A stretch of 64,000 nt of DNA from Sipunculus nudus (Eukaryota; Annelida; Sipuncula; Golfingiida; Sipunculidae). Each line of letters begins with the position of its first letter. The first letter of the stretch is position 1. Under the pieces are notes generated by a model. The model searched no databases. It worked only from the letters and a program-made list of their open reading frames with translations, and was not told the origin of the DNA. Made by a program: the position numbers and the translations under genes. Shown in pieces: positions 25,703 to 57,082 of this stretch. The stretch spans positions 30,443,340 to 30,507,339 of the forward strand of contig CM049322.1 of NCBI GenBank assembly GCA_026874595.1, written 5' to 3'.

Positions 25703-26877
25703 TTGTATCCGCCAAAACAGAGTTTTGTGGATACTATGTTTTCAGCTGCACGCCGCCGCCGCGTAGGTGTCTGGAAAACTCCTCCATAACCGCTGGGCGG
25801 AATTTTACGAAACCCGGGATTATGTTCAGGTCACATGTGAACTGCTGTGCCCCGATTTTGTTTTGACCTCTGACCTTTCCTCTGCGCTCTGCGTCAGTTT
25901 GTGCGTCTGTTTCCACACATAAACCCACATCTCGGGAACTGTTTGACCAATCAGGAAAATTTTTTTGCACAAATGTAGCCCTTGGAGAGCTTTATAGCAT
26001 ACACAAAAAATGGTGGCGCCAACTGCAACCATGTTTGCACAGTGTCCATCTGTTCGTCTGCCTTCGGTTAAAATCACTCATATCTCTGCAGTGGTTTGAC
26101 TAATTCACCTGAAATTCAGCATGCGTATACATCCTGGACACCTTTTCTGATTTTATGACAGGTGGCGCCACCTACATTAACGTTTACGCTGCAGACATCC
26201 AAGCTCATATCTCAGGAACCGTTTGACCGATTGAGCCAAAATTTTGCATGTGTATAGATCTCACATAGCTCTGTATCATAGGCAAAACTGGTGGTGCCAC
26301 CTGCAGCCATTTTTGCACAGCTCTGGTCTATTTGTCTGCCATGGGATAAAATCACTCATATCTCTGCAGTGGTTTGACATATCTACCTAAAATTTTGCAG
26401 GTTTATACATCCCCGAGAGCTCTCTTGATTTTATGACAGGTGGCGCCACCTACATTCTACATTTATGCAGCAGATATCCAAGCTCATATCTTGGGAACCG
26501 TTTGACCGATTGGGCCAAAGTTTTGCATGTGTATAGTTCTCACATAGCTCTTTATCATACGCAAAACTGGTGGCTCCACCTGCAGCTATTTTTGCACAGC
26601 TTCCATCTGTTTGTCTGCCAAGGGCAAAAATCACTCATATACATGTAGTGGTTTGACTTATCTGCCTTAAATTTTGCATATGTATACAACTTGGACAGCT
26701 TTCTGGATTTTGTGGTAGGTGGCGCAACCTACATACACAATTGGGCTGCAGACATCCATGCTAATATGCAACACTTCACTCTATTTCCCCTTGCCACTCA
26801 ATCCATGCCTGACTTCACCCGTTCCACTCTGATTTAGGCGGATACACGTAGTCGCTTGTCGACTACCCGTATTCTAG
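25703..26877 (+). mobile_element. X-type Helitron2-like element (copy 1)
   Basis: The 5' end GTATCCGCC (with AAAAC/GTTTT and GGATAC making a hairpin) recurs as GGCGGATAC near the 3' end (about 26838). It is followed by the hairpin GTAGTCG-CTTGT-CGACTAC and the terminus ATTCTAG. The body has repeats with CTCATATCTC, CCGTTTGACCGATTG and GGTGGCGCCACC. The paralogous empty site is intact at about 54447-54462 (CAATAATTCTTGCATG), which shows precise insertion with no target-site duplication beyond ambiguous Ts. Non-coding. Confidence 0.8.
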
Positions 26878-27197
26878 TTCTTGCATGTATTTCCTTGATT
26901 TTTGCTATATATTTTGATCTTATATTTGCCCTTTGTGGAGTTCTTTTTGAGACTGACAGGTTTCAAGCAGGCTGTTGGAATAGTTCCTGATAGCTTAACA
27001 ATCATGCATTTTCCTCAGACCATCAATTCACTGTGTTTTAACCAGACATAGGTGATATATATTTGTGTTGTCATAGAAAATTTTCAACAAATTGGCAAAT
27101 TGGTTCTTCAAAATTTGACTGGAAGTTGTGAATCTCAGTCCATGATGTCACAGGTCATGCTTGGCAGCTGAGCGTCATGACCCATGGGTCACTTGTT
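26878..27197. repeat. Duplicated segment S, right part (copy 1), ending in an E-type 3' terminus
   Basis: It matches 54455-54488 plus 57083-57366, and is uninterrupted where copy 2 carries a Y element (CTATATATTTTGATCT at about 26904). It ends at 27165-27197 with CAGCTGAGCGTC, the perfect palindrome TGACCCATGGGTCA and CTTGTT, so segment S is probably the 3' portion of a larger E-type element. Confidence 0.75.
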
Positions 27198-28561
27198 ACG
27201 CCTTTTAATACCCCCTTAATTGCCACTTGACATTACTGTAAGCATTATAAGTCAAAAACTAATGGACAGATTTCTTTCATATTATGCACTTGTAGAGAGA
27301 TGGGTTATGGGATGAGGTCTTTTTACATTTGAGACACGACCTTTACCATGAGAGTGGCCTTGACCTTTAATGTGTCCATATTTGGTGAAAATCACACACC
27401 TCTTATGATATCTCCAATGTTAATAGCCATATGGATTTCAAACGTGACTTATGTATGGCCCACCACTAAAGTAAGAACCCTATAGGTTCTAGGGTCATGA
27501 GGTCAAAGGTAAAGGTCACTGGACTTGCATCTTAAAAGATACTGTGGATGCATTTAAAGCCAAACTTTCATCCCAGACCTTCCATCTTGAATATATAGCT
27601 CACTTGCCAATAGTGGATGATCTATATCAATTTTGGGGTCACATGGTCAAAGGTCAAGGTCACAGGACACATTTTTTAATAGATGTGGATGCATTTTCAG
27701 CCAAATATTTCATCTCAGATCTTTCATCTTGCACATATAGTTCACCTGCCAAGAGAGGAAGAACCCTATCAATTTTGAGGTCACAAGGTCAAAGGTGAAG
27801 GTCACAGGAGCAATCTGTCCAAAAATTAGTTTCTGGATGATAATTCCTGCGTTTATTGATGTATGGATTTCAAAATTGACTTGTATATGTCCCATTGTAA
27901 AGGAAGACCCGAATTGATTTTGGGGTCATGAGGTCAAAGGTCAAGGTCACAGGACACATCTTTAAAAAGACTGGATGCATTTTCAGCCAAACATTTCATC
28001 TCAGACATTTAATCTTGCACATACAGTTCCCCTGCCAATAGAGGAAGACGCCTGTCAATTGTGAGGTCACAAGGTCAAAACTGAAGGCACAGGAGCCATC
28101 TGTCCAAAAATTAGTTCCTGAGATGATAATTCAAGCTTGGATTAATATATGGATTTCAAACCTGACTTAAATATGGCCCATCAATAAATCTAGATCTCTT
28201 ATTATTTTATATATAAAAGTAGATGATCAATATCAATTTTGGGGTCACAAGGTCAAAGGTCAAGGCCACAGGAGCCATCTGTCAAAAAATTTGTTTCTGG
28301 ATGATAATTCCTGCTTTAATTGATGTATAGATTTCAAACTTGACTTATATATGTCTTACTGAAAAAACAAGACCCCAATTGATTTTGGGGTCATGAAGTC
28401 AAAGGTCAAGGTCACATCACCAACGAAGATGGAAGAAACAATAATTGCTTGCCAAGTGTCAGTATATGCTGCTAAAAATGGGGGTCTATTCTTAAAGGGC
28501 GGGGGGGCTGTACTATGTTTGGAGATACTCTGGCACCTGCGGTGCCAAGATATATCTAGTT
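27198..28561 (+). mobile_element. Y-type Helitron2-like element, 5'-truncated
   Basis: It starts inside the Y body (TTTAATACCCCC) directly after a CTTGTT terminus and ends GGAGATACTCTGGCACC, hairpin GGCACC-TGC-GGTGCC, then ATATCTAG at 28554-28560. Units of about 290 bp carry AGGTCAAAGGTCAAGGTCA-like clusters (perfect at 27931-27949). It is collinear with the complete copy at 54489-57082. No credible protein. Confidence 0.7.
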
Positions 28562-28940: not shown

Positions 28941-31234
28941 AATTTTAGGGTAACTTGTATCATGGATATAGTATATATAAATAGTGACAAACACTTACTG
29001 CAGAATTTTATGCCCTAAGGGTTTGGGTAACCCGTTTCCCAGATATAGCATATATTAATAGTGACAAACACTTTCTTTAGTTTTTCTTGCCTGAAGGGTC
29101 AGGGTAATCCGTATTCCTGATATAACATATATAAATAGTGACAAACACTTATTGGAGTATTTCATGCCCGATTGGTTAGGGTAACAGGTATCCCGGTTTA
29201 GCATATATTAAATGTGACAAACACTTATTGAGGTATTTCATGCAGGAAGGTTTAGGGTTACCCGTATCCCGGATATAGCATGTTAATAGTGACAAACACT
29301 CGTGTATTCATGCCTGAAGGATTAGGGTAACCCGTGTCCCGGATAAAGCATAAATTAATAGTGACAATTACCTACTGGAGTATTTCATTCAGAAAGGGTT
29401 AGGGTTACTCCATTCCCGGCTATAACATATATTAATAGTGACAAACACTTACTGGTATGTTTCATGCTCGAAGGGTTAGGCTAACCTGTATTCGCATATA
29501 GCATATATATTAATAGTGACAAACATAACCAGCTTCTGTGGCTTAGGGGTAGAGCACTATACCTAAAGCTGGGAGATCGCGAGTTTGAATCTCAGTTGAG
29601 GCAATTAGATTTTTCACGGACCGCCCCCACTCAGGGTGAGTGTTCTGCAGGCTTAATGGGAAAGCCATGCCCCAATGCCGTGTTTCACTCACAAACGAGT
29701 GCGCCTTATAGGGGTACCTCAGTGGTATGTCCCAGCAATAGGGATGATTTCCCACCCAAGTCCTGGAGGTGCAGTAGTCACCGGGCCTGGTTGACCCGAG
29801 GGTATGAAATGAGAGTATATGTGTGATACTCTCTGTCTTGTAGTCCTAAACATGAACTGATTTCTGCAGATGTCCATATACGTAGTTAGTGAGCATAAAA
29901 AAATGGAGGCGGTTACCTCCACCAAAAAAAATATAAAAAACATAATACTGACAAACACATACTGGAGTAATTCATATACGAAGGTTTAGGGTAAAACGTA
30001 TCTAGGATATACCATATATGAATAGTGACAAACACATATCTCCAATATTTCATGACTGAAGGGATAAGGTAACTGGTATCACGGGTATAGCATGTATTAA
30101 AAAAAGAAAAACACTTATGAAGCATTCATGGCCGCAGTATTAGGGTAACCCGTAACATGATATAGCATATATTAATAGTGACAAACACTTACTGGAGTAT
30201 TTAATGCCCAAAGTAAGGGTAAACCGTATTCCGGATATAGCATATATTACTGGTGGGAAACACTGACTGGAGTATTTCATGTCTGAAGGCAAACTGTAAC
30301 CTGTATCCCAGATAAGCATATATTAATAGTCACAAACACTTACTTTTAGTATTTCATGTCCGAAGGCTCAGGGTCAACCGTATCCAGAATATACCATATA
30401 TTAACAGTGACAAACACTTACTGGAGTATATCAAGTCAGAAGGGTTAGGATAACCCGTATCCCGGATAAAGCATACATTAATAGTGACTAACACTTACTG
30501 GAGTATTTCATGCTCGAATAGTCAGGGTAACCCGTATCCTGCATAAAGCATATATTAATAATGATAAACGCTCTCATGTCAAAGTGTTTGGCAACTCGTA
30601 TATAGCTTATACTAATAGGACGAAGACTGACTGATGTTTTTCATGCCCTAAGAGTTAGGGTAACCTGATTCCCAGGTAAACCATATATTCATAGTGACAA
30701 ACACTGGAGTAAACACTTACTTGTGTACTGGTGTATTTTATGCTCAGAGGAGTAGGGTCACCCGTATCCCGGATATTCCATATATTAATAGTGACAAACA
30801 CTTCCTATGGTATTTCATGCCCGAAGGGTTAGGGTAATCGTATCCCGGATATACATATATTAAATGTGACAAACACTTATTGGAGTATTTCACGCCTGAA
30901 GGGTTAGGGTAACCCCTATCCTGGATATAGGATACATTAAAAGTGACAAACATTACTGGAGTATTTCATGTCCAAAGGCTTAGTGTCACCCATATCCAGG
31001 ATATACCATATATTAATAGTGACAAACACACACACACAAACAACTGGAGTATTTCATGCCTGAATTGTTAGGGTAACACGTATCCCGGATTAGCATATAT
31101 TAAATGTGACAAACACTTATTGGGGATTTCATGCAGGAAAGGTTAGGGTTACCCGTATCCCGGATATAGCATGTTAATAGTGACAAACACTCGTGTATTC
31201 ATGCCTGAAGGGTTAGGGTAACCCGTATCCAAGA
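28941..31234 (+). repeat. About 78-bp satellite with TTAGGG-like core
   Basis: Roughly 25 imperfect units of the form: TAATAGTGACAAACACTTAC, TGGAGTATTTCATGCC, GAAGGGTTAGGGTAACCCGT, ATCCCGGATATAGCATATAT. The core GGGTTAGGGTAACCC is an inverted repeat (GGGTTA/TAACCC). A SINE (29529-29937) and a BEL/Pao element (from 31235) are inserted. The array resumes at 44733. Confidence 0.85.
29521..29945 (+). mobile_element. tRNA-derived SINE
   Basis: The head (29531-29605) resembles a tRNA: A box TGGCTTAGGGGTAGAGCA and B box GAGTTTGAATCTC with proper spacing. A conserved-looking middle domain (about 29650-29800) and an A-rich tail with a GGAGG/CCTCC hairpin follow. The likely 8-bp target-site duplication AAACATAA flanks it at 29521-29528 and 29938-29945. 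A second, headless copy of the middle and tail is at 33950-34262. The head is too degenerate in its stems to be called a functional tRNA. Confidence 0.8.
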
Positions 31235-31916
31235 TGTAAATGCACATAATTACTTTGTAACAAGAACATACATATTTGTTGTTTACAATAAGAAAATTAG
31301 AAACAAAAAAAAATGTATGTCATTGCTGGGGTTTGAACCAGGGACCTTCGGGTTTCAGGTGTGGCCTGCCCCCTGTTGAGCTAACTTATATAATGTTTGT
31401 TATGTCATGGTTCATATCACACAGGGTAATGACCAGAGGTCACTGTGTACAGACACTATAATCATGTGACAGTTAGATCATTTTCTGTTTGTAAGACCAA
31501 AGCAGCATAGCAGTATGACCATAGCTCCTTGTAACCTTGTGTACCCTTAGGTAGAGCCCACACAGATGTAGGTCACGTGGACATTATTGTAGCCTATTAA
31601 TGAACTGTAATAATCAACAGTAAAGGTTTGTAGCATATATTACCACAGTATAGCAATATCTTTTTCACAGAATGTATGTTAACAGTCTTGATATATGCAG
31701 GTTTCATTACATTCACTGTGTATCGGTTAACTGTCTGAGTAAAGCAACAGTATTCGACTATATACAGTTATTGATAACAGTTATTGTTGAATGGATTATC
31801 TTTGCACTTATTTAAGGACGTAATGGTTTATGTATGCACTAGTACATTGTAGAGTATTATATTTCATCTGTATTTCCTCCCACTTAGATATTTCTTACTT
31901 TCTCTTTTGTCCACTA
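31235..31916 (+). repeat. BEL/Pao 5' LTR, left part
   Basis: It matches 43789-44463. The LTR is cut at the TA at 31915-31916 by a DNA transposon and resumes at 36957. Without that insertion the LTR is about 950 bp. Confidence 0.9.
31321..31386 (-). other. tRNA-like segment within the 5' LTR
   Basis: The minus strand reads TTAGCTCAACAGGGGGCAGG (A-box-like) and, 35 bases later, GGTTCAAACCCC (B-box-like). This resembles a tRNA or tRNA-SINE head. The stems are imperfect, so it is a relic or a chance match. The equivalent segment of the 3' LTR is 43873-43938. Confidence 0.4.
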
Positions 31917-32965
31917 CCGTAAAATCTCCACTTAAAACCGCGGTTTAATCAAGAAATTCAAAATATTGAAATCAGGTTGATTTCCTATAAGCACTGTGTG
32001 GTTTATACTAGAAGGGTTTCCTGAATATCTTCCTGACAGTCATTGTTTTTGGGCCGGCGCTTGGGCGATAATATTGCAACTTTCAAAGGCTGTTCTTAGC
32101 ATGCATGGGAGCCGTGTGTAAATGTATTATTTACGATTATTTGTTATTTATAAATTAAATATTGCTGATTAGTTTTCGTGTGATATATAACTTGTTATAA
32201 AATCTTGGTAATTGTCACCAAATAATGGGCCATTTTCACAAAAAGTGACAAATAATGGTAAAGACATTTTCAAAAATTTTTTGATCAGGAATTACAATAT
32301 TTTTACACAGAAATAAAATATATGTCCTCACAAAATTTGTGTAGAAACAGCAAAGCTAGATTAGAAAATTCAACAGAAATGATACAAAAAATATTTTTTC
32401 CATTTTGTCTTTGCCATTATGACAATAACGGTAAAGACATGAAGTTTATATTTATACCATTAAAAAGATGTAAACAATATTTAAATTTATTAAAAGTCAA
32501 TCATGAGTCAGGGTAACAAAATATTTTTTCAGTTAAAGATAATTCACTAACACAAAATTAATCATGAGCTGAATAACAATATAAATTGTTTGGAATAATT
32601 AACCTTGACGTCTTTACCGTTATCAGTTGAAGTCTTTACCATTATCTCATTAACAAGACAAGTTTCAGTGTCAGCAACCTTGTAGCTGTTACATGTGAAA
32701 CCTTTCTACATATATCCAGCTTGTTTTACTGAATTTTAAAAACCAAACAAAGTAAAATAGATCACCCATGGTTGTTACTCATATACAGTTTTCTCAATGT
32801 TGAAATAACATAAGTACCTGCTCTCTTTGTATAACATAATATATTTAAAACATTCAAATTACACAAACCTAGTCTGAATGCTATTATATAAAACTTATTA
32901 CATCTTAAAAGAACATTAGTTTGTGTAAAATCTTTACTTTATTCTACTGGAAGTGGAATATTTTT

Positions 32966-33700
32966 TTTAGCTCAGCTGATTTTAGCATGCTGACCATAGT
33001 GATGGGTCTTTGTCTTTTTTCCGGTTATCCAGCTGTCCCTCCCTTAGCAAGGCACTAGTCCTAACTTTAAGACACAGAAAATTCATGCTTGAGAGACATA
33101 AAGGTCCGGGTAAATCTCCTTGGAAACACCCAAAATAAGGAAACCGTGACATATATAATGCTAGCTAAATAGCAAAAACATGTTTTGAGCACTGTGGAAG
33201 TCAACCTTTTCTGAAGTGGGAGGCCGTTGAACAAAAATTTTCCATTGGACAAATGGCTCCAGTTCTTCAAAATTATTACCATTTATTGTAATAAAATATG
33301 GTCTGCTCACTGATAATAGAGAGTTGATGAGCTAAGTAAAATATGTGGTTCCACCTGTACTTTTTCTGTTATTCTAATTGAATTTTTCTATATTTTTAAG
33401 ACTGCTTAAGTGAAGCAAATTAAAGCAAATTGTGCCAGTTTCTCAGCAGTGATTTCAAGTGTTTCCCCCAAAAAATGTGATATGCCTATTGATTATATAG
33501 ATATTCTTATCAGTTGAACAAGTGGTAGCAGCATTGTGCCACCTATTTACATGCCATTTTATTTTTATTTTGAGACTTCTAAGTTATACCAGTTGTGTAT
33601 TTTCCTGAGATGATGGTTCATGCATTTCCTGAAATTTTGTATGCTTAGTGATCATGGTTAGTGTAATTGGCTTAACAAAACAGATGACTAGAGGTCACTT
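32966..33700 (+). mobile_element. Diverged E-type element fragment
   Basis: TTTTTTTAGCTCAGCTGATT followed by a CCGG/TCC-rich stretch and TTAGCAAGGCACTAGTCC is a degenerate E-type 5' end. The body is AT-rich and poorly conserved, and no 3' terminus was identified, so the right boundary is approximate. Confidence 0.45.
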
Positions 33701-33949
33701 TTTCCAAATATTAGGCATCTATTAATTGTATTTATCCTTGACTTTTGAGACTGCCAAATTACAGCAACTGTGTCAAATTAGTACTTTTATGTATGACACT
33801 GACAGGAAGCAGTGACATATATCAGAGTATTTGCAGGTATTCTTTTTATATTAGACTATCAAACTGAAATCATGTCCATTAATCAGACATCATTCGATTA
33901 AAATTGTCCATTAATTAGAAATTATTACATCAAATTTTTAACAAGACTG

Positions 33950-34262
33950 GCCTCCACCCATGGTAAGCACTCTTAAGGCTTAATGGGATAGCTGTGCCCC
34001 AGGCCACATTTAATCGCAAACAAATCCACCTTTCGGGGTTTCCTCAGTCCTATGACCCAGCAATTGATGTGATAACACACCCAGGACCTGTAAGTGTGGT
34101 AGTCACTGGGCCTGGTTAACAGGACATAAATCATAATTGAGATGAATCGTGTGCAACCGCCCTGTTAAAGTCTTAAAATAATAGTTACATACATAGTTAA
34201 GTTAGTACTTAAGAAATGAAGATGTGTACCTGCACCAAAAATGATAAAAACAAAAAAAAAAA
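33950..34262 (+). mobile_element. SINE fragment lacking the tRNA head
   Basis: It matches the middle and tail of the SINE at 29529-29937 (AGGCTTAATGGGA, CCCAGCAAT, GTAGTCACTGGGCCTGGTT, A-rich tail) but starts after the tRNA-derived part. Confidence 0.65.
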
Positions 34263-36956
34263 CAAAAAACGTATTTGTCAGTGTCTTGGGAACTCCAAAT
34301 CCCAATTTTTTTGCCTACAATTTCAGGAAACATGTCAGACTGCACTCTCATGTAATACCAAAAAGGATTGTGTAACCAAGCACATTTAATGAGGTTAAGT
34401 GCTTTACAAGTTTCTTTTGGATTACTGATTTACACTCACAGAAATTCTAACATAAAAAGTTAAATAAATGCCACCTTAACTTGTGAATTGCTCAGGGGTT
34501 TTAATCATCCATTAAGTGCACTGATTATTTTATGCATTTTTACATCAGTTAGCTTGGTATACCTAAGTAAAGAATGCAGAGTGGAGTTCTGATGAATTCT
34601 GATGTCAACAGGTTAACTTTAGAATATCAGATGTACACAAGGCTACATCTGAAATGTGAAAAGTGAACTTGCTTTGAATGCAGATTATAGACATAAGGCA
34701 TGATCATCCCCAAGTCTGAATTGACATTCTTACTTGTTAATTCAGACAAGTAAATATTTGGTTTTTACCAAAGGTATCATGGCATTTTCCCCCAAAAATA
34801 CTCTCCTTTGTAAGCTTGATGTGAAGGGCTAAAACAATAAACAGTTTACAACTTCATGAGGAAATATGTCATATGACCTCTAACAGATGCATGGTATGTT
34901 TGATTATTTGGTGTTCCTTTTTTAAGTAGAGGCATATTCTTGTATTATCATATAAAATATATTTAATTTCTTTCTCTCTAAATAAACTGACACATAATAT
35001 TATTATACAGAAATACTGTGGCAAGGTTACAGCAATAAATTGTACATAGTGTGAGCTCAAGCTCCGGGTCTTTGTCACACCAGTCTTTACCATTAATACA
35101 TATTCACAACGGTAAAGACAGATCAAGATAACGGTAAAGACACAAATATGGCATGTAGGATATGGTTATGTACAACAGCTTGAAAAGTAGTTCCTCAACA
35201 CAGCCTAAACACTATGCATATTCAACAGTGACAGATCCTGTCATTTAACTCCTGATGATTCCATGTCTATCAATGATAACGGTAAAGACATCCAATTGTT
35301 GTGACACCCACTAACACTGTGGTTTGAAACCAACTTTTACAGTATAAAAAACACTAGCAGGGTCCTGCTTGTGGTCAGTATACCTGCTGATTCTTGTGCA
35401 GATGACATTACCTGTGAGCTTATTAAAAAATTAAGTTCAAATCTCATAATTAGCATAATATGATAACAGTAAAGACAAGCACATGTATAATTTATGGTCA
35501 CACAAAAAAGGACTTCCCATTTACATGTATTTTGTAATACCATAATCATGACATGTTTCAGCACCAATTCAAGTGATATACTTAAATAACAGATATAGTC
35601 CCAGGTGGCCTCTTTACTAAAAGTAATTATTTTCTATCTTTTAAATTGTTGTAATCAATTTTGGACATATAACGGTATGGACATTTATGTTACTAATGAT
35701 TTCAAAAATCTTTAAAAAAATGTAAATATATACCTATTCAATTTTTTTTAGTTTCCGCATTTTAGTTTATACATGACAGAATACCAAAATTGAAAAAATG
35801 ATAAAGTATAATAGATTTTAAAATGATGGACATTTCTTTACCGTTATTTGTCACATTTTGTGAAAATGGCCCTAATACGTTTACAACAACCCTGCTGTTA
35901 CACACAGCGGTCCACTTCGTTGGGCATGGTCAAGCAAAATTGAAATAAAAGCCTACTTTAAACCCAATTGCGGCATTATTTAGCAATGATTATTTGTTTA
36001 AAACGTAAAATGAATAAAAAGCTGACATCGTAAAGAGTCACGTTATAAAATCAAGTCTGAGTGCCGCCATGTGCTGAAACACCCCGGTATTCTGCTAAGA
36101 ATATTTTGAACGGCTGTACGCGGTGGGTGGTAAATAGAACAGCCACCTATTTCGTCCCAGCATGCCTTGCGCGAACACTGCCTTGACAAAATGGCTCTCC
36201 ACACGGAAACTTTCTTTAGGAAAAAAACTTACTAACCCGGACTGGCCACTTTAATTTTACCTTAAAATCACTCGTTTTCAAGCGTCACGTTTCCTATACG
36301 TGCGTATCTCGAAAAGGTAACTTCAGTTACTTTGTTATTTAGTTAAGTTGACCAGCGATGTTTTCAAATGCACCAGCAAATTGTGACATGCAGCGATGTC
36401 AACGTACGATGTGACGAAGATAATACTGAAGTAACCGGTATGAAAATGATTTGAATCTTCCGAGTAATTCCAGAAAATGGAATTTTCATACAAAATTAAG
36501 ATTTCAAAATATTACACTTTTAGAATTAAAATATACAGTGACTTGAAATGGATCAGCAGAATATTTTTTTTCCAAAATATAATGACAAATCAGTAGCAAA
36601 CAAGAATACGGCACGGAATATAAAATCTGTGTAAACAGGCAGAGGTTCACCGGCCCTTACGTCATCCCAAACTTCATGCTTGAGTGACCCTGCAAAAAAG
36701 TGTTATGATGTGTTTAAATAAAATGCCCAAGGAATTTTTAAAGTGGACAGGAATGGCCGAGTCGCAACCTACACGTGTTCATTTCTAGATGATTGCTTGA
36801 TTGTGTCTTTTGTCAAATCATCCCGTAGCGAAAGTTGGTGCGGTTTTAAAGGGGGGTTCTTAGTATTTGAGCCCCTCGCGGTGTCTCGCCTGGAATTTCG
36901 GCGAAGTCTGGGTGCGGTTTTAATCGGAAGTGCGGTTTTAAGTGGAGATTTTACGG

Positions 36957-39610: not shown

Positions 39611-39639
39611 GTAGCAAACACAGTTCCAGCCATTGAAGA

Positions 39640-45004: not shown

Positions 45005-46400
45005 CACTTTTTAGCAAACCTGTGAGCTTATGCGATGGTGTGGCGTCGTCCTTTGTCTGTACGTAAACCCATACTATCTTGAAAACGGCACGAATTAGCA
45101 TCACAAAATTTTATGCATAAAATTAGTCATTTAAAAAACTCTATTGGATTTTGCTTATTTTTTGGCTAACTGCATTTTCTTAGATTTTATAGGGAAAAAG
45201 CTTAAAAAAACTTTAAAAATCTTCTCCTCTGAATCTGTTCAGCAAAATTGTCCAATATTTTACAGAAATGATTCCTGGAACAATCTCTTTCAAGTTTTTT
45301 TGAATGGTTTAAGTTCGGTGATTTTTGGCCGAGTTACAGGAAGTTGAACTTAGTCATCTGTCCAAAAATGCATACTAAAATTACAATCTCAGAAATGGCT
45401 TGAGCTATCATCACCAAATTTTATGCCAATGTTGTTCACATGAGTCATATCTGAAATTGAGGTATTGGTGGCGCCACCTGCATCGGCCTTTTTTGTACAG
45501 GGGTCATCACTGCCCGTATCATACTGACAGCTACAAATAACTTTTTCTCTAAAACGAAATGGCCAAATTGTTTAATATCGCACAGAAATGATCTTAGGGT
45601 AGTGCTTGCTGAAGTTTGTTCAAATGGTCTCAGTTCAGTGACTTTTTAGCTAAGTTATGGGAAGCTGAATTTAGTCATATGCCATAACAGCCCATTTTAG
45701 CTAAGTGGCTACAAAAATCTTCTCAAAAACCACTGGGCCAAATTCTTAAATCTCACACATAAATTATCCTTAGATGTTGATAATTCAAGTTTGTTAAAAT
45801 GGTCTCAGTTCAGTGACTTTTGGCTGAGTTATGGGAAGCTGAATTTAGTCATATGCCATAACAGCCCATGTATGCTAAGTGGCTGCAAAAATCTTCTTCT
45901 CAAAAACCAATGGGCCAAATTCTGAAATCTCACACAATAATTATCCTTAGATGTTGATAATTCAAGTTTTTGTTCAAATGGTCTCAGTTCAGTGATTTTT
46001 GGCTGAGTTATTGGAAGCTGAATTTAGTCTTATGCCATAACAGCCGATGTTAGCTAAGTGGCTACAATAATCTTCTTCTCAAAAACCAATGGGCCAAATT
46101 CTTTAATCTCACACAATAATTATCCTTAGAAGTTGATAATTCAAGTTTGTTCAAATGGTTTTGGTTCAATGATTTTTGGCTGAGTTATGGGAAGCTGCAC
46201 TTTGCCATTTTGCTGTATTTTCCCATATTAGTTATAAACCTACAAAATGTTTTTCTACTGATGATACTGAGGCCAGTTTGTTTAATATTTTGCAAGAATA
46301 ATTCCCTGAATCATTCTAATAATAATTGTCTTTTATGGTTCCAAAAATGAATTCTTGGCTGAATTATAAAGATTGAATTGAGTCATTTTACCATATATGT
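45005..46400 (+). repeat. Tandem repeats of about 175-180 bp
   Basis: About six diverged units share TCAAGTTTGTTCAAATGGTC, CAGTTCAGTGATTTTTGGCT, GAGTTATGGGAAGCTGAATT and AACCAATGGGCCAAATTCT. The start (AGCAAACCTGTGAGCTTATG, then TGGCGTCGTCCTTTGTC) looks like the 5' end of another interspersed family. One GGTGGCGCCACC lies at 45477-45488. No 3' terminus was identified. Confidence 0.7.
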
Positions 46401-47733: not shown

Positions 47734-47981
47734 TTTTTAGCTCAGCTGACTATAAGTCATCTGAGCTATAGTCGTGGTCCTTTGTCCCTTGTCCGTCCAT
47801 CTGTCTGTCTGTCCGTCTGTCTGTCCGGATGTCCGTCCGTAAGACTGGCACGTTTTGACACCATTAGACCTACGAATATGAAATTTGCCATACAGTTATA
47901 TGTCCCCAAAATCTCCTACAATGCCGAAAATTGGGTCAATAAGACTTCATTCCTTCGAGATATTAAGGAAAAACCTCATTT
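47734..47981 (+). mobile_element. B-type element, 5' end fragment
   Basis: It has the 5' hairpin AGCTCAGCTGACTATAAG, a CCGT/CTGT-rich stretch and the start of the first body unit, then stops at a second, E-like 5' end. Confidence 0.7.
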
Positions 47982-49080
47982 TTAGCTCAGCTGACTTTCA
48001 GTCATGCTGGGCTATAGCGATGAGTCTTTGTCCGTCTTCCTTCCGTCTGTCCGTCCAGCTGGCCGTCCGTTAGCAGGGCACAAATCGTAACCTAGGGGCT
48101 AGGGCCATGAACCCTATGCAGTCTTAGAGGTTCTAAAAAGATCTCCTTGCAAACCTGAAATTAGGTCACTGCGACCTATATTCTCGAAGTTATGGGGTGT
48201 GTTTGCACCCCTCAGAAATAACTCTTTGAGACAAAATTTTCATCCCAAAATGATGAAAGCTCACCTACCAACAGGGGAAGAACCATAATTTTTTTGAGGT
48301 CAAAAGGTCAAAGGTCAAGGTCACAGGAGCCTCTTCTTTGAAAAGCCTGTGGATGCATTTTAAGCCAACCCTTTCATCCCAATTCTTTGATCTTTCACAT
48401 ATAGCACACCTACTAAGTTGGAGAAGAATCCTATAGATTTTGAGGTCACAAGGTCAAAGGTCAGGGTCACAGGATCCACTTCTTTGAAAAGGTTGTGGAC
48501 ACATTTCAAGCTAGACTTTTCATTCCAAACCTCTCAGCACTGATATCGCTTCTCTGCCAACAGGGGAAAAGACCTGTTGATTTTAAGGTCAAAGGTCAAG
48601 TTCACAGCACCCACTTCTTGCGTGGAGTCATTTTCAGGCACACTTTTCAATCTGTACCTTCCATCTGTCATATATGGCTTACCTACCAATAAGGGAAGAA
48701 GCATATTGATGTTGAGGTCAAAAAGTCAAAGGTCAAGGTCACAATATTTAATTGTTCTAAATGCTTGTGAGCATATTTCAAGTGTAACTGTTCAACCCAA
48801 ACCTTCAGTCTTTCACATATGCCACATCTATGCATCACTCAGTTTGACTCAAACTTCATATTTATGGGTCTTTTTGCTTGAATAAATAACTTATTGATTT
48901 TGGGGTCAGCTGGTCAGCAGGTTAAAGGTTGCAGGTCAAAGTCATTCACCCATTGGTTGCCAAGTAATTACACCAGATTTAAGTGGTTAGTAGTTACCTA
49001 TCATTTAGAAAGAATCCAGTTGATATATAGGCAAAAGGCCAAGGTCATAGGTCAGGGATGTTCACAATTACTTATTTTAT
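47979..49080 (+). mobile_element. E-like 5' end joined to an AGGTCA-repeat body
   Basis: TTTAGCTCAGCTGACTTTCA and a CCGT-rich stretch are followed by GGGCACAAATCGTAACC (E-type) and then, from about 48280, by units of about 135 bp with GAGGTCAAAGGTCAAGGTCA-like clusters (perfect DR1 plus half site at 48305-48323). The body style is that of Y elements, so this copy links the E and Y groups. No clear 3' end found. Confidence 0.55.
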
Positions 49081-49346
49081 AGACCATCTCCATTTTTCTT
49101 GTATATATAACCATCCCACTCCAGCTGGTACATCTCCCTGTGTGGCTGTAATTGTGAGTGACACTGGTGACAAATGACTCCCTTTTGTATCAGCCTTTTA
49201 AGTGATAAGGCTCAGAGATAAGTACCTCGTTACTTCATAACAAAAACACTGTTGTCAGAATGCTTCAGCCAGGCATTAAGACTATGAGAGTATAGTATTA
49301 AGGTTTAGCTACTGATTTATAAGATGATAGGGGCATTTTGCAGTTT
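49081..49346. other. Unassigned sequence
   Basis: No feature recognised between two repeat elements. Confidence 0.3.
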
Positions 49347-52300
49347 ATTAGCTCAGCTGACTATAAGTTATCTGAGCTATAGTCATGGTCCATTGTCCGT
49401 CGTCTGTCCTTCTGTCCGTCCGTCCGTCCGTCTGTCTGTCTGTCCATCTGGTTGTCCGTCCGTAAGACTGGCACGTTTCGACACCGTTGGACCTACGAAT
49501 CTGAATTTCAGCATACAGTTAGATGTCCCCATAATCTCCTACCATGCCAAAAATTGGGTCAATAGGACTTCGTTCCTTTGAGATATTAAGGAAAAACCTC
49601 AATTTTTGATTAGAAATCTATTTTCACACTTCAGGACTGCCTAATATCAAAACCACTAATCTGGTTTTCTTCATATTTACCATAAATATTCCTCTATATA
49701 GTTCCTATGTACATGCCATATATTAAGTCAGTACTATATAATTTAAAAAAGTTATGGGCCCAAACATAATGGACTTTGTAAAAAAATCAGGAAGATATTT
49801 GGTCACTTAAGACCAAAAGTGTTAAAGGTAGGGACTTTTTTCAAGTAAAACAATTTTAATTAATCAAAATTTAATTGTATACCAAAAATTAGATCAAAAT
49901 TTGTTAAATTTTTTTAAATATTGGCAAAAATATAAAAATGGTACCTTAAATTTTGCCAAACTTTGGCCATGGCACGTTTTCTTCCTGTAAGTACTGTGAA
50001 TTTAATTTTCACACCATGTATACATAAGGATTTTATCTGTTAAAATCTGAAATTTGAAAATAAAAGCTGCAAAATTAGGCTAGTTATTGAATTTTTTTGG
50101 AGGCTCTTGTTGTATTCCTTTACATTGTCAAGCAGTCCACTTTGATGACTGTAGGTCATTCAGTGCACATCTCTATGCTCCCCAGGCTGTTGACATAATT
50201 TTAGATGTCCCCAAAATCTCCTACCATACAGAAAATTGGGTCATTAGGACTTTGTTCCTTCAAGATATTAAGGAAAAAAAACTCTGTCTTCCATAAAAAA
50301 AGCCATTGTTACACTTCAAGGCTGCCTAATATCAAAACCACTGATCTGTTTTTGATCGTATTTAGTATTCACATTCTTTTATACATTTTCTATGAACATA
50401 CCAAAAATTAGGTCAGTATTGAGTATTATTTTGAAGTGATGGGCCAAAACATAATGCAATTTTTAAAAAAAATCAGGAATATATTTACTCACCTAACATG
50501 AGAATTGCTGAACCTAGAGACTTTTTTTCAGTAATATAACTTTATTTAATCAAGATTCAGTTGTTTACCCAAAATTAGATCTGAATTTTGCAAATTTTTC
50601 AAGTTATTAGCATAAATAAAAAATCAATACCTTAAATTTTGTCCAACTTTGGCACTGTTGATTTAATTTTCCCAGCATATATGCATAAGGATTTAATCTT
50701 TTAAAATCTGAACTTTCAAAAGAAATTGATTGGAATGAATAGCTTTTATTCATGTTTTCATACACCATGTCAAGTGTTGTTTACATCTGGCCCACCTAGT
50801 AGTACAGCCTTCACTTGCATTATGTAACCCACCCCAGGCAGCTTACCTTGGCCCAGCTTGGCCACTACTAGCAGGCTTCCGCTGTGCCCTGCTCTCATCC
50901 CCCCCCCCCAAGCTGGTGCATAAACTAGATGAATGTTATGATTTTTCTGTATTTTATTTTATTCTTGGACATGCTACATTTTAGATTTTGTATTGAACCA
51001 CCAGGGTTACAATGATTAAAGTGTACATTTAATTGTGTCCACAAAGTGGTGTTTTGCTGTGAAAGTGGGGATGTTCATGAGATAAGTAATTCCTTACTTC
51101 AGAAGAGTAAAAACTTCACCAGGTGGAAATTGACTATTAATTCCAGTAATTAATTTAAACTGGGATAGTAATTAGCACAATGATATTGTTTGTCCCTCAT
51201 TCAACCAACAGTGTGTATACTTTATTTGAAAAGATGTTTTATTTTATCAAATTTACTTTTATTTTATTTTGGTGAATAAAATTAAGCATGTCCTGAAAAC
51301 TCCATTGTGCAAAACTTTTTAATAGTGATTCAAGGAATATTCTTGTAGATTCCATGTTGTGGCTTTATTTTCTTCTTAAATCAGTTTAAACATTTATAAT
51401 AAAATATATGTGTAAGCATAATATGACCCAATGTATGTTACTCTGTATATATAATGATTGCAACTTTTGCAACAATTCTAATATTTTAACTTATATTTTC
51501 TGGTTTTTTAAATTAAAAATTTATAAACCTGTAAATAAAAAAATGATTCAGATAAAAACTTCTTAATGGAAAAAGTGGATCTGCTAAAAAAATAGGATTA
51601 TATATAAACTTAAATGCATTATTCTCTTGAAAGTGAAATAAAGGTATTAGTCCATTCTGTCCACTTGCCTGTCCATCTGTAAATTTTTGTATGCAACACA
51701 GTATCTCAAAACTTTTACTGTTTTTCTTCATGACAGTCTTGTCAGAGTATTAGTTTGCAATCATATATTTAGAACTTTACTATAACCAAGTAGGAGGGCC
51801 CCTTTCCTCTTAGCTTTTCATATTCTTATATAAATGAAAAACATTACAATAGTATATTTCTACATCCACCTTCGTGCTGCCCTCACTTTTCCCTTCTCCG
51901 AACCCCATCCCAAAGTCAGCCTCAGTAAGCAAGAACAAGATGAATCAGATATATTCATACTTTAATATTTGTATCCGCCAAAACGAAGTTTTGCGGATAC
52001 TATGTTTTTCACCGGGTTCCGCAAAACAAAATTTTTACACAAATGTAGCCCTGGGATAGCTTTATAACATACACAACAAAAGGTGGCGCCACCTGCAACC
52101 ATGTTTGCACAGTGTCCATCTGTTCATCTGCCTGGGGTTAAAATCACTTATATCTCTGCAGTGGTTTGACTAATTCACCTAAAATTCGGCATGCGTATAC
52201 ATCCTAGATAGCTTTCTCGATTTTTTGACAGGTGGCACCACCTACATTCACGTTAACCCTCCACACATAAACCCATATATCTCGGGAACCGTTTGACCGA

Positions 52301-53725
52301 TCCAGAAAAAAAATTTACACAAATGTAGCCCTGGGAATGCTTTATAACATACACAACAAAAGGTGGTGCCACCTGCAACCATGTTTGCACAGTGTCCATT
52401 TGTTCATCTGCCTGGGGATAAAATCACTCATATCTCTGCAGTGGTTTGACTAATTCACCTAAAATTCGGCATGCCTATACATCCTAGATAGCTTTCTTGA
52501 TTTTATGACAGGTGGTGCCACCTACATTCACGTTAACGCTGCAGACATCCAAGCTCATATCTCGGGAACCATTTGACCAATCAGGAAGAAAAATTTACGC
52601 AAATGTAGCCCTTGGATAGCTTTATAACATACACAAAAATGGTGGCGCCACCTGCAGCCATTTTTACACAGCGTCCATCTGTTTGTCTGCCTTTGGTTAA
52701 AATCACTCATATCTCTGCAGTGGTTTGACCAAATTACCTGAAATTCAGCATGCTTATACATCCCGCATAGCTTTCTTGATTTTATGACAGGTGGCGCCAC
52801 CTACATTCACGTTCACGCTGTAGACATCCATGCTTATATCTCTGGACTCATTCAACCAATCAGGAAATTTTTTTTACACAAATGTAGCCCTTCGATAGCT
52901 TTATAACATACACAAAAATGTTGGCGCCACCTGCAGCCATTTTTGCACAGCGTCCATCTGTTTGTCTGCTGTGGGATAAAATCACTCATATCTCTGCAGT
53001 GGTTTGACTTTTCCACATGAAATTTTGCTTGTGTATATATCTTGGATAGTTTCAAATAACAGGTGGCGCCACCTACAATCATGTTTATGTGGCAGAGATC
53101 CATTCTAATATTTAACACATGTAACTCTATATCCCCTTGCCACTCAATCCATGCCTTACTTCACCCGTCCTTCTCTGATTTTGGCGGATACACGTAGTCG
53201 CTTGTCGACTACCCGTATTCTAGTTTGTATAACTATTCGTCCATAGGTACCTATGTACATGCCAGAAATTATGTCAATATTGTGTAATATGTAGACATAG
53301 TGGGCATCACAATAATGTACCTTGTCAAGACTAAAGAGATATTGTGTCATACAGTCACATATTCATAAATCACTTCATCAGCATAGTTAATCATAACATC
53401 ATATCTGTCAAATTGAACACTTGCAGACCACCATTCTACTACTGCTTATTACTGCTGTCATTGCATTCATATTTGCTCAAATATATCACAATTTTCAACC
53501 CCTCCTAAATAAATAAAAAATAAACCACTTTATTTGACTCTATTAATCCATCAGTCAGGTAATTTCATTTTTCATTTACTCACATATTACATTAAATTCC
53601 TTTATAATAGCCCAACATGTACATGATATTCACAAGCTTTATCGACTCAATATAGGATCACAGTGGAGAAACATTTATAGTCCAATCACGATCAGCTGAG
53701 CCCCGTGACCCATGGGTCCCTTGTT
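49347..53725 (+). mobile_element. B-type element (subtype D) with nested X element
   Basis: The 5' hairpin and CCGT/CTGT run at 49347-49465 are followed by B body units, the D segment homologous to 20078-21325 (about 50430-51655), the nested X element, and a 3' end at 53693-53725 (CAGCTGAGC, TGACCC-A-TGGGTC, CCCTTGTT). No coding sequence. Confidence 0.6.
51969..53223 (+). mobile_element. X-type Helitron2-like element (copy 2)
   Basis: It has the same ends as 25703-26877: GTATCCGCC at 51971, inverted GGCGGATAC at about 53183, hairpin GTAGTCG/CGACTAC, ATTCTAG at 53217-53223. The body has more repeat units, with perfect GGTGGCGCCACC at 52082, 52641, 52790 and 53062. Confidence 0.8.
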
Positions 53726-54488
53726 TTATGGAATCCTAGCAATAAACTTAGTTTCCTAGATATCTGAATATTTTAATATATATCACCACATATAAGAGCA
53801 AGTGTTTGTTCTCATAATATATGGATGTGTACCTTGATTTAGGATGGCTTTTTGTTTTATTTCAAGACTCATAGTCATGCTTTCTGCATTTCTTTTCTTT
53901 CAGGTTTGGCAGTTTACCTACCCTGCTGACCCCATTGAAAAGCAGAGTGATAATAAAAAAATATTGGTCTTTCTAATTTGCATATCTATAAATCTGATAT
54001 GAGGGCCTGGACATGCCTTTTGAATTATTTTGGGCATTCATTACTGGATAATTTGCCCCAAGTTTGGTCTCTTATTGGAGAATGTGGGATATCAAATGTC
54101 ATACTTGTCAGAAATCCATTATGTCTGCCAGTTAGCCACCTTAGAAATTCTTTCTTCAGTGCGGTTTCAGTAATTTTTCTTTAATGTTTGGTCTGATTTA
54201 GAGAATGTTTGTTGTCTGATTTCAGACTTGTCAGAAGTCCAATATGGCCACCAGGCAACCATCTTTTAATTCCTTTTGATCATATTATCTCAAGAATAGT
54301 TAAAGTGAATGCAGTTGGATGTATGTTTATGTAATCTTGTAAAGGATTGGGTCAAATATTTCTGAATAAATATTATCATCATTTATAAAATAGCAGTATG
54401 GTTGGCTTGTATTGAATAAAAATTCATACAGAAGCACCTGTTTCTCAATAATTCTTGCATGTATTTCCTTGATTTTTGCTATATATTT
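53726..54488. repeat. Duplicated segment S, left part (copy 2)
   Basis: 54078-54451 matches 25328-25702. The extra left portion (53726-54077) is kept only here and includes a pyrimidine-rich tract ending in CAG (about 53890-53905). The X-insertion site is empty at 54447-54462. A Y element follows at 54487-54489. Confidence 0.8.
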
Positions 54489-57082
54489 GTATCCCCAGAC
54501 AAAGTCGGGGGATACTATGTTTTCAAACCGGTCCCCCCGCTGCCGCCGCATATAAATCTTGTTGCCGTGATAACCCAAAAAATATTTCACAGAACTTTAC
54601 CAAACTTGGTATATGTATAGATATGGGTAAGAGGACGACGCCTATTTAAAATGAGGTCATGACCTTTACTAGGAGAGTGTCCTTGACCTTGAATAGGTCC
54701 AATTTTGTGGAAAATCACACAAATTCTTTAATATCTCAAGAAATCTTGCATGGATTTATCCCAAAATCAAGTTGATGGAAGATCATGGATAGGGTTGTCA
54801 TGTTCCAGAAACAGGTGGCGCCACCTATTATTCTTTACTTGTTTTCGTGCCGTTTAATACCCCCAAAATTGCCACCTTACAGTACTGTGAGCATTATAAG
54901 TCAAAAACTAATGGACAGATTTCTTTTATATTATGCATATACATAGGTATGGGTTATGGGATGATGTTTATTTAAATTGGGGTCATAAACTTTCCTATGA
55001 TAGTGGCCTTGACCTTGAATATTGCCATATATGGTGAAAATCACACACCTCTTATGATATCTCCAGTGTTGATAGCCATATGGATTTCAGACATGACTTA
55101 TGTATGGCCCACCACTAAAGTAAGAACCCTATAGGTTCTAGGGTCATGAGGTCAAAGGTCAAGGTCACTAGACTGGCATTTTAAAAGATACTGTGGATGC
55201 ATTTTAAGCCAAACTTTCATCCCAGGTCTTCCATCTTGAATATATAGCTCACTTGCCAATAGTGGATGATCCATATAAATTTTGGGGTGACAAGGTCAAA
55301 GGTCAAGGCCACAGGAGCTATCTGTCTAAAAATTAGTTTCTGGATGATAATTCCTGCTTTTATTGATGTATTGATTTCAAATTTGACTTATATATGTCCC
55401 ATTGAAAAAGCAAGACTCCAATTGATTTTGGGGTCATGAGGTCAAAGGTCAAGGTCACAGGAAACCTCTTTAAAAAGATTATGGATGCATTTTCAGCCAA
55501 ACATTTCATCTCAGACCTTTCATCATGCAAATATAGTTCACCTGCCAAGAGAGGAAGAACCCTATCAATTTTGAGGTCAAAGGTGAAGGTCACAGAGCCA
55601 TCTGTCCACAAATTAGTTACTGGATGATAATTCCTTCTTTTATTGACGATGGATTTCAAACTTGGTTGGTATTTGACCAATTGGAAAAGCAAGACCCGAA
55701 TTGATATCTGGGTCATGAGGTCCAAGGTCAAGGTCACAGGAAACCTCTTCAAAAAGATTGTGGATGCATTTTCAGCCAAACAATTCATCTCAGACCTTTC
55801 ATCTTGCACATATATTTCACCTGCCAAGAGAGGAAGACCCCTATCAGTTTTGAGGTTACAAAGTCAAAAGGCAAGGCCACAGGAGCCATCTGTCCAAAAA
55901 TTAGTTTCTGGATGATAATTCCTTCTTTTATTGATGTATGGATTTCAAACTTGACTTGTATTTGACCCATTTTAAAAGCAAGACCCGAATCGATTTCTGG
56001 GTCACGAGGTCAAAGGTCAAGGTCACAGGAATCTTCTTAAAAAGATTGTGGATGCATTTTCAGCCAAACATTTCATCTTAGACCTTTCATCTTGCAAATA
56101 TAGTTCACTTGCCAAGAGAGGAAGAACCCTATCAATTTTGAGGTCAAAGGTGAAGGTCACAGGAGCCATCTGTCCACAAATTAGTTTCTGAATGATAATT
56201 CCTTCATTTATTGATGTATGGATTTCAAACTTGACTTGTATTTGACCCATTGGTAAAGCAAAACCCGAATTGATTTTGGGATCATGAGGTCAAAGGTCAA
56301 GGTCACAGGAAACCTCTTTTAAAAGATTGTGGATGCTTTTTCAGCCAAACAATTCATCTCAGATCTTTCATCTTGCACATATAGTTCTCCTGCCAAGAGA
56401 GGAAGAACACTATCAATTTTGAGGTCACAAGGTCAAAGGTGAAGGTCACAGGAGCCATCTGTCCAAAAATTAGTTTCTGGATGATAATTCCTGCTTTTAT
56501 TGATATATGGATTTCAAACTTGACTTGTATATGTCCCATTGGGAAGCAAGACCAAAATTGATTTTGGGGTCATGAGGTCAAAGGTCAAGGTCACAGGACA
56601 CATCTTTAAAAAGATGTGGATGCAGTTTCAGCCAAACATTTCATCTCAGATCTTTCATCTTGCATATATAGTTCTCCTGCCAAGAGAGGAAGAACACTTT
56701 CGATTTTGAGGTCACAAGGTCAAAGGTGAAGGTCACAGGAGCCATCTGTCCAAAAAAATTAGTTTCTGGATGATAATTCCTGCTTTATTGATGTATAGAT
56801 TTCAAACTTGACTTGCATATGTCTCATTGGAAAAGCAAGACCCAAATTTATTTTGGGGTCATGAGATAAAAGGTCAAGGTCACAGGACACATCTTTAAAA
56901 AGATCAAGGTCACAGGACCAGCATCTTCAGCAAGATTGTGGATTGTTAGATGGAAGAAACAATAAATATGCCAAGTGTCAGTATATGCTGCTAAAAATGG
57001 GGGACTATTCTTAAACGGTAAAGGAGTGGAGGCTACTATGTCTGGGGATACTCTGGCACATGCGGTGCCAAGAAATGTCTAG
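54487..57082 (+). mobile_element. Y-type Helitron2-like element, complete
   Basis: The 5' end GTATCCCCAGAC (54489) is repeated inverted as GTCTGGGGATAC (about 57040), followed by the hairpin GGCAC-ATGCG-GTGCC and the terminus GTCTAG (57077-57082). The body has roughly eight units of about 290 bp, each with two AGGTCA-rich clusters and CCATCTGTCCAAAAATTAGT. One GGTGGCGCCACC lies at 54824. The empty site in the paralogous segment (26904) defines the insertion. Minus-strand open frames are repeat artefacts. Confidence 0.8.

Follow-up and report, generated by a model that had tools for sequence, protein, structure and literature searches.

Repeat families of a Sipunculus nudus genome window have the ends of Helentron-associated elements, and one end type coincides with Rep/helicase/endonuclease genes

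The repeat families E, B, X, Y and Z, found in a 64,000-nucleotide stretch of Sipunculus nudus DNA (the window), are non-coding copies of a known rolling-circle kind, the Helentrons. Their end design is genuine and belongs to the Helentron-associated elements (HINEs). It is very probable that all five are non-autonomous HINEs whose shared ends are recognised by a Helentron Rep/helicase/endonuclease; end anatomy, copy number, the insertion sites of X and Y, and a coding parent with E/B ends argue for this reading. The relevant features of the window are as follows.

2047–2081, + strand: E-type 3′ end; second copy at 9498–9532, in a tandem duplication of ~7.45 kb
5801–5833, + strand: B 3′ end CAGCTGAGCGTCGTGACCCATAGGTCCCTTGTT; further copies at 13259 and 25295
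15820–20077, + strand: E stretch with TTTTTA and 5′ hairpin GCTCAGCTGAC...GTCATCTGAGC, a GTCC-rich stretch, ~336-bp tandem repeats and 3′ GTCAGCTGAGC...TGACCCCTGGGTCACTTGTT; further E 5′ motifs inside it at 18528 and 19048
25317–27197, + strand: duplicated block carrying X and ending with an E/B-type 3′ end; paralogous to 54066–57366, which carries Y
25705–26879, + strand: X copy 1, with 5′ hairpin GTATCCGCCAAAACAGAGTTTTGTGGATAC, ~279-bp tandem repeats, 3′ GGCGGATAC, a hairpin and CTAGTT
27200–28561, + strand: Y copy 2, 5′-truncated, with terminus CTAGTT; its left junction adjoins an E/B-type CTTGTT end
47740–49361, + strand: three more E-type 5′ motifs, at 47740, 47985 and 49351
51971–53225, + strand: X copy 2, with the same ends as X copy 1
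53693–53725, + strand: E/B-type 3′ end of another subfamily
54489–57084, + strand: Y copy 1, with 5′ hairpin GTATCCCCAGAC...GGGGGATAC, ~289-bp tandem repeats, 3′ GTCTGGGGATAC at 57040, a hairpin and CTAGTT
57334–57366, + strand: E/B-type 3′ end, paralogue of 27165–27197; an E-like 5′ motif GCTCGGCTGAC follows 12 bases on
59266–63708, − strand: Z, with 5′ hairpin GCTTGCCGGAAATCTTCGATTTCGGCAAGC and 3′ TTTCCGGCAAGC, a hairpin and CTTGTT or CTAGTT

The first-pass annotation had ascribed one end design to E, B, X and Y: a 5′ terminal motif, the same motif inverted just inside the 3′ end, a short 3′ hairpin and a fixed terminus. Z is a fifth family that shares it. In X and Y the 5′ end is a GTATCC hairpin, whose motif recurs inverted near the 3′ end, followed by a hairpin and CTAGTT; the X motif GTATCCGCC at 25705 and 51971 is paired with its inverted copy at 26837 and 53183. 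E starts with TTTTTA-GCTCAGCTGAC. In the window this motif occurs 13 times, preceded by TTTTTA in 12 copies and by TTATTA in one, and is therefore subterminal, not terminal; GTCAGCTGAGC occurs three times. For B a 5′ end was identified in no copy, and the family is known by its 3′ end alone. The motif and its inverted copy are confirmed by coordinates in the window for E, X and Y. Palindromic, asymmetric subterminal inverted repeats are present at both ends of E, X, Y and Z. The 5′ motif itself forms a hairpin in E, X, Y and Z, and in each case none of 200 shuffles folded as well. A 3′ hairpin is predicted for all five families. Its predicted energy is unremarkable for E and B (90 and 51 of 200 shuffles folded as well, respectively) and somewhat better for Z, X and Y (15, 9 and 3).

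The termini CTTGTT (E, B) and CTAG (X, Y) are real, but the latter reads CTAGTT in full. This holds for all four X/Y ends of the window, whose CTAG ends at 26877 and 53223 (X), 57082 (Y copy 1) and 28559 (Y copy 2), and for 2,931 of 2,994 X ends genome-wide. CTWGTT is consequently common to X/Y and E/B. Moreover, both termini are found within one type, Z; the third Z copy ends in CTTGTC, and at 63677/63676 a Z 3′ end is directly joined to a Z 5′ end. The E/B tail CAGCTGAGC...CTTGTT occurs nine times in the window, always on the + strand, with several occurrences being copies within duplicated blocks.

Genome counts of the E/B, X and Y ends are far above chance. Exact E/B 3′ ends number 30,476 (15,223 + 15,253 on the two strands; reversed-pattern control 0 + 2), exact X 3′ ends 2,994 (1,470 + 1,524; control 0) and exact Y 3′ tails 1,702 (865 + 837; control 0). 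The Y 12-mer occurs 4,492 + 4,480 times versus 22 + 29 for its control, and the B 3′ end sequence 1,523 + 1,476 times in exact form.

Insertion at T-rich sites without duplication, the remaining part of the earlier description, was borne out for X and Y. Empty sites for five independent insertions (L061, L071, L076, window X1 and window Y1) indicate that insertion at an ATT target adds TT in net terms, and a target duplication longer than TT is absent. The blocks 25317–27197 and 54066–57366 are each the empty site for the other's insertion, and L041 provides a further empty site for both X1 and Y1. L079 repeats the X1 event and was left out of the five; for L076, the net TT gain agrees with one of two paralogues, the second having a different T run. 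The flanking TT may be a 2-bp duplication of the target or a terminal TT owned by the element, and these two readings cannot be told apart.

The former reading leads to MITE-like cut-and-paste elements with short terminal inverted repeats, a TT target duplication and a DDE transposase. Such elements would account for the inverted motifs at both ends and for the TT flanking X: among 20 fetched copies, TT follows CTAG in all 20 and precedes the 5′ end in all 10 for which that end could be located. They would also account for one exceptional copy, L108, with CT on both sides. It was one of eight non-TT copies with a located 5′ end, drawn from the 26 of 2,994 X ends that read CTAG[ACG]; in all 14 of these 26 that were fetched, the second place is T. 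In the other seven of the eight, the two sides do not match. The 5′ side is TT in six of the eight, CT in one and AT in one, and the six that keep TT look like point mutations. Furthermore, the motif at the 3′ side lies inside the element, followed outwards by a second, dissimilar hairpin and CTWGTT, and the E/B ends coincide with Rep/helicase/endonuclease elements. Symmetrical inverted repeats combined with a target-copied duplication, as sought for DDE/TIR (MITE) elements, were not found. A MITE-like origin is very unlikely.

A coding parent was found for the E/B end type, as the first-pass annotation had proposed to look for. The Rep profile PF14214 gave 143 matches over the cut-off in the genome, some of them pieces of one gene, and none in 14 control genomes. 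The 3′ flank was read at 13 candidate loci, and in nine of them an E/B-type 3′ end stands on the sense strand with no more than four mismatches; two of the nine are copies of one duplicated region. At C8:29795282 the end is degenerate (seven mismatches), and it is absent from the stretch read at C11:50963065, C3:32120125 and C13:9109249, the first of which failed to align with the other candidates. Four loci (C5:42912065, C10:71600289, C9:52348152 and C17:35630192) are 97.6–98.6% identical over ~1.4 kb, comprising the ORF end and ~1 kb beyond, and lose matching within 1–2 bases of the E-type CTTGTT. Two others, C8:33935689 and C8:22655190, which were read at the two flanks, open with an E 5′ end followed by GTCC-rich sequence and repeats of the E type, and their flanks differ. 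Antisense E/B ends occur in two of ten three-kb stretches around candidate loci, so that the local background exceeds the genome average.

Four of the seven group II Rep domains (L015, L016, L018 and L020) contain FYRVEFQQRGSPHIH; L017 has the variant FYRVEFQERGSPHIH and L021 FNRVEFQQRGSPHIH, and the script found no motif in L022. FYRVEFQQRGSPHIH agrees with the Helentron signature, a motif 2 with F/Y-x-R and G-S-P-H, given in passages of PMC4067079. Rep, PIF1 and endonuclease occur together in the C17 and C13 proteins. The C13 endonuclease matches Exo_endo_phos_2 with E 4.8e-8, and that of C17 matches Exo_endo_phos with E 3.2e-4 and 20.9 bits, below the Pfam cut-off of 24.5; a group I endonuclease on C11 gave E 3.8e-13. 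Among the frames scanned, which were the Rep/helicase frames only, those of C7 and C3 showed no endonuclease, and the C7 frame ends short of that region. The placement with Helitron2/Helentron elements is thus supported by the E/B coding parent and the X/Y empty sites, while the label Helitron2 is not: because the parents carry an endonuclease, the appropriate name is Helentron and not strict Helitron2.

These genes also bear on a canonical Helitron1 family, with 5′ TC, 3′ CTRR, A|T insertion and no subterminal inverted repeats. Rolling-circle Rep/helicase genes are indeed present, and X and Y have CTAG just ahead of the terminal TT. However, there is no 5′ TC; the 5′ ends are palindromic and the subterminal motifs inverted, E/B and part of their parents end in CTTGTT, X/Y empty sites gain TT at a TT target, and the group II Rep combines the G-S-P signature with an endonuclease. 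A Helitron1 assignment is extremely improbable.

For X and Y, six loci read at length and ten at their flanks, out of the 143 Rep matches, yielded no coding partner with X/Y ends of its own. Group I Reps were dropped as partners of X/Y or Z. Beyond the ORF, four of their copies stay alike for 3.7 kb with ends not reached; the Z-like sequence at these loci is on the opposite strand and is found again from copy to copy. The one group III copy fetched, C3:41770464, ends in GTGTCGTTCCGACACATCTAGTT, a hairpin plus CTAGTT, beyond which a repeat also present in the window continues. Its tail lacks the inverted X motif, and a 5′ end to match it was looked for without success; group III offers a plausible 3′ end for an X/Y partner but no 5′ end. 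The chances are about even that X and Y are Helentron-like and moved by another rolling-circle lineage than E/B, for example group III. The differing subterminal motifs and the group III hairpin with CTAGTT favour this, whereas the incomplete group III ends and the use of CTWGTT by both end types oppose it.

Under the preferred Helentron reading, a protein comprising Rep (HUH nuclease), Pif1-type helicase and endonuclease would recognise the shared ends, nick after TT at the 5′ boundary and displace a single strand. The 3′ hairpin with CTWGTT would halt displacement, and the strand would be joined after TT in the target. E and B would be moved by the protein of the coding parent found here; X and Y presumably use a related Helentron protein.

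Several known systems share parts of this picture. According to passages of Vojvoda Zeljko et al. 2020 (PMC7492417), Cg_HINE of Crassostrea gigas likewise has a subterminal repeat of 11–12 bp, to which an arm close by on the 5′ side is complementary, satellite-like central repeats, a 3′ palindrome and TT insertion without target duplication; its GTCC microsatellite is shared by E and lacking in X/Y. Genome and sequences are different, and in the passages seen no autonomous Helentron could be related to it, whereas the E/B ends coincide with Rep/helicase/endonuclease. The corresponding parts of Thomas et al. 2014 (PMC4067079) describe Helentrons and HINEs of mite, Culex and Drosophila with palindromic subTIRs that lie a few bases inside the 5′ end, a 3′ stem-loop, T strings at the boundaries and TT targets, the HINEs being shortened relatives of Rep/helicase/endonuclease elements, as here; the sequences differ, and X/Y lack a known partner. 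Helitron2, in the same source, shares asymmetrical terminal inverted repeats and palindromes at both ends, but its proteins are described as lacking the endonuclease domain that the E/B parents on C13 and (weakly) C17 have. The oyster HINE studies, in the portions consulted, describe abundant elements with no coding source tied to them (PMC7492417) and no autonomous element detected (PMC7992393). In contrast, one genome here links the commonest end type, with >30,000 exact E/B 3′ ends, to a coding parent.

Neighbouring copies of different families are co-oriented more often than expected: on C1, copies from different lists 3–100 kb apart share their orientation in 176 of 230 pairs. Replication and transcription are candidate causes. 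Conceivably, though rather doubtfully, Helentrons insert strand-specifically by replication direction, for example into the lagging-strand template, which would align unrelated families nearby. A possible model is IS200/IS605, bacterial elements for which passages of PMC5371812 describe single-strand transposition, as proposed here, and an insertion orientation that recapitulates replication direction. If orientation follows replication forks, this would be a eukaryotic counterpart to that behaviour, and the E/B copies, in their tens of thousands, would let fork direction across an animal genome be read from sequence. Among the matches listed in a literature search, no work on region- or replication-dependent Helitron orientation was recognised. 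Alternatively, and with somewhat better prospects though still short of probable, orientation follows the transcription strand of surrounding genes, through insertion or retention. The agreement is confined to ~100 kb, a plausible gene scale, and an intron orientation bias is known for other transposons (PMC3517506, in part); the start of C1, partly satellite arrays where sampled, is nevertheless biased over ~1 Mb.

There, between 64,036 and 1,048,401, − and + E/B ends stand at 75 to 4 among the matches listed, this interval being taken from the listing as complete on both strands. An apparent change of strand near 1.2 Mb on C1, common to all families, was discarded: among the 100 matches listed, which seem to end separately for each strand, − ends reach only to 1,048,401, although − copies lie beyond. 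A/T composition was likewise rejected as the cause of the bias. Four 5-kb samples, which are few, contain 1,895 AA and 1,662 TT on the + strand; three consist of tandem arrays throughout or nearly so. The fourth is mostly ordinary sequence with 491 AA and 550 TT, and composition therefore favours no 75 to 4 excess of − insertions.

All motifs that the first-pass annotation had named for the repeat families E, B, X and Y are present in the window. X and Y start with GTATCC, and their first 27-30 bases are predicted to form a hairpin; in E, GCTCAGCTGAC is predicted to pair with GTCATCTGAGC. In E, X and Y alike, 0 of 200 shuffles gave an equally good fold of these 5' hairpins. The E motif had been taken for the 5' terminus, which it is not: it is preceded by TTTTTA in 12 of 13 copies and by TTATTA in one. 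Near the 3' end, all four families carry the inverted motif again, then a second predicted hairpin and finally the terminus, CTTGTT in E and B and CTAGTT in X and Y (four of four X/Y ends in the window). For B, the proposed end design holds at the 3' ends, which were identified; a 5' end was identified for no B copy. The bodies contain tandem repeats of ~279 bp (X), ~289 bp (Y) and ~336 bp (E). Family Z, the fifth to follow this plan, and further repeats are listed below.

Additional repeat features in the window and at two loci fetched from the genome (C1-C17 are contigs of the same genome)
59266-63708 (~59.3-63.7 kb), minus strand: family Z, same end plan, ends CTTGTT and CTAGTT
31232-44463: BEL/Pao-like LTR retrotransposon remnant, two direct repeats of ~680 bp, 96% identical, around ORFs
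28945-31235 and 44733-45010: tandem repeat of ~77 bp containing TTAGGGTAACCC-like stretches, adjoining the LTR-like repeats
L037 (C10:71593989-71596989), ~1386-1463 in gene orientation, and L085 (C1:152660-152992): stacked 3' ends

One Z 3' end is joined directly, head-to-tail, to a Z 5' end at 63677/63676. The identical junction occurs at a C11 locus; it is the arrangement expected from a rolling-circle concatemer or from insertion at the terminal TT. In the stacked 3' ends, a B-type tail of ~45 bp starting with TATCATATATAA directly follows another 3' end (CTTGTT or CTAGTT), perhaps due to read-through or solo-end insertion. The ORFs between the ~680-bp repeats encode Pao peptidase and integrase zinc-binding domains. 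At positions 1-14900, a unit of ~7.45 kb, E and B copies included, is duplicated in tandem.

In the 1.43 Gb assembly, exact E/B 3' ends were found 15,223 and 15,253 times on the two strands (backwards-read pattern: 0 and 2), X ends 1,470 and 1,524 times and Y ends 865 and 837 times (control patterns: none). A single B 3' sequence gave 1,523 and 1,476 exact matches.

The insertion sites of X and Y could be deduced from paralogous sequences. On the flanks of the two insertions, identity between the blocks 25317-27197 and 54066-57366 is 96.6-96.9%; since the former contains X and the latter Y, each block represents the empty site of the other. Both blocks terminate in the 3' tail common to E and B (E/B-type end), so the target of these two insertions, X1 and Y1, appears itself to be an older E/B-type copy. 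Empty sites were available for five independent insertions: X and Y of the window and three X copies from C1, with L079, a repeat of the X1 event, counted once. In all five, a target containing ATT became ATT[GTATCC...CTAG]TT, with TT as the net gain; Y1 can be placed only to within a run of four Ts, and for L076 the paralogue at window position 4231 fits the gain, whereas the one at 23358 has a different T run. TT follows CTAG in all 20 X copies fetched from C1, whose flanks differ by eye except for L079 and X1, and precedes the 5' end in all ten of them in which this end was locatable in the fetched stretch. Across the genome, CTAGTT was the sequence at 2,931 of the 2,994 X ends. The flanking TT may belong to the element or be a 2-bp duplication, and the data fit both; an element-owned TT would be the simpler reading if Rep nicks after TT at both element ends.

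The Helitron Rep domain PF14214 has at least 143 matches in the genome, a lower bound that includes fragments of single genes, and none in 14 control genomes. The 20 domains read fell into four groups, I-IV, of 11, 7, 1 and 1. Among the seven of group II, the candidate parents of E/B, FYRVEFQQRGSPHIH is present in four and differs by one residue in two; in one the script did not find the motif. It fits the Helentron signature given in PMC4067079. In group II proteins, Rep is combined with a PIF1 helicase and an endonuclease; the endonuclease domain scored above the curated cut-off on C13 (Exo_endo_phos_2) and below it on C17 (Exo_endo_phos), and the C7 frame as read stops upstream of the endonuclease region.

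A search for a Rep/helicase element with the same ends, proposed in the earlier annotation, succeeded for the E/B type. It covered the 3' flanks of 13 candidate loci in two sets (10 and 3); assignment to group II is based on the Rep sequence for six and on coding-flank alignment for the rest except C11:50963065. A sense-strand E/B-type 3' end with at most four mismatches follows in nine of the 13. Four loci (C5:42912065, C10:71600289, C9:52348152, C17:35630192) are 97.6-98.6% identical over ~1.4 kb, comprising the ORF end and ~1 kb beyond, and lose identity within 1-2 bases of an E-type CTTGTT. C8:33935689, C8:22655190 and C4:28846328 share the subterminal repeat and the hairpin of these four, with the terminus CTAGTT or CTAGTA; C7:71189229 and C7:70980080, copies of one duplicated region, end in CTTGTT. 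One locus has a degenerate end with seven mismatches, and at C11:50963065, C3:32120125 and C13:9109249 no E/B 3' end was found within the stretch read. At ~15,000 ends per strand, a sense-strand end is expected by chance in ~3% of 3-kb stretches. Antisense ends occurred in two of ten such stretches, which indicates a higher local background; for this reason, more weight falls on the common stop of the four near-identical copies. At the 5' side, both C8 loci begin with the E 5' end, followed by a GTCC-rich stretch and E-type repeats, with 76-83% identity to window E in the first aligned part. As read at their two sides, these elements would span ~12.1 and 11.5 kb; the sequences that flank them differ (45 bases of flank in one case). 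A coding source was found for this one end type, E/B.

The C5, C10, C9 and C17 elements contain an X copy nested in the 5' region, and its right junction is the same in all four. X has therefore apparently been amplified also as cargo of E/B-type Helentrons. None of the loci read showed a Rep element that itself has X/Y ends: the single group III locus has a 3' hairpin and CTAGTT without the X/Y motif, a 5' end was looked for there and not found, and the stretches read for group I stop short of the element ends.

The placement among Helitron2/Helentron elements can now be narrowed. Helitron2, as described in PMC4067079, lacks an endonuclease; the E/B parents, which have one, are therefore better named Helentron. 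E matches every part of the plan listed for Cg_HINE, the non-autonomous Helentron-associated elements (HINEs) of Crassostrea gigas, in PMC7492417; X and Y match it too, but a GTCC microsatellite is not evident in them. The authors of that paper were unable to relate an autonomous Helentron to Cg_HINE, and PMC7992393 states that an autonomous element was not detected in the C. gigas genome. It is well supported that E, B, X, Y and Z are a new set of Helentron/HINE members, of a kind already known.

Within the window, the 3' ends of E/B, X and Y all face one direction and those of Z the opposite one. On C1, 75 E/B ends between 64,036 and 1,048,401 are on the minus and four on the plus strand among the matches listed, one of the four (at 517,650) resembling a chance match; X (three of three) and Y (four of four) ends are all minus as far as 1.16 Mb. 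Among 20 E/B copies fetched from this region, the 19 available 3' flanks showed weak similarity in two pairs only, so these copies seem mostly to be separate insertions. Large tandem arrays with periods of ~119 and 64 bp lie between them (L101, L103, L104; C1:600001-605000, 780001-785000, 536001-541000).

This strand bias prompted a pair test on one chromosome, C1, at 3-25.9 Mb, with pairs below 3 kb and copies outside the region excluded. At 3-100 kb, 62 of 84 pairs agreed in orientation for the first three lists (X, 87 copies; Y, 35; one E/B subfamily, 41). With B (76) added afterwards, 176 of 230 cross-list pairs agreed, compared to 115.7 (sd 8.3) for rotated strand labels; the values for three distance classes within this range were 36/41, 54/71 and 86/118. 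Agreement was 116/153 for X or Y versus the two E/B subfamilies and 60/79 for disjoint nearest pairs (one-sided binomial, 2.1e-6). At 100-200 kb it was not above chance (97/185 cross-list pairs). Composite elements could explain some of the agreeing pairs, namely part of those below ~15 kb, but cannot account for pairs at 20-100 kb. Within lists, B (21/22), Y (5/7) and the E/B subfamily (6/9) agreed, whereas X reached only 16/34, which counts against a simple regional rule. Replication and transcription are candidate causes of the local agreement among Helentron-type families; for bacterial IS200/IS605, PMC5371812 links orientation to replication.
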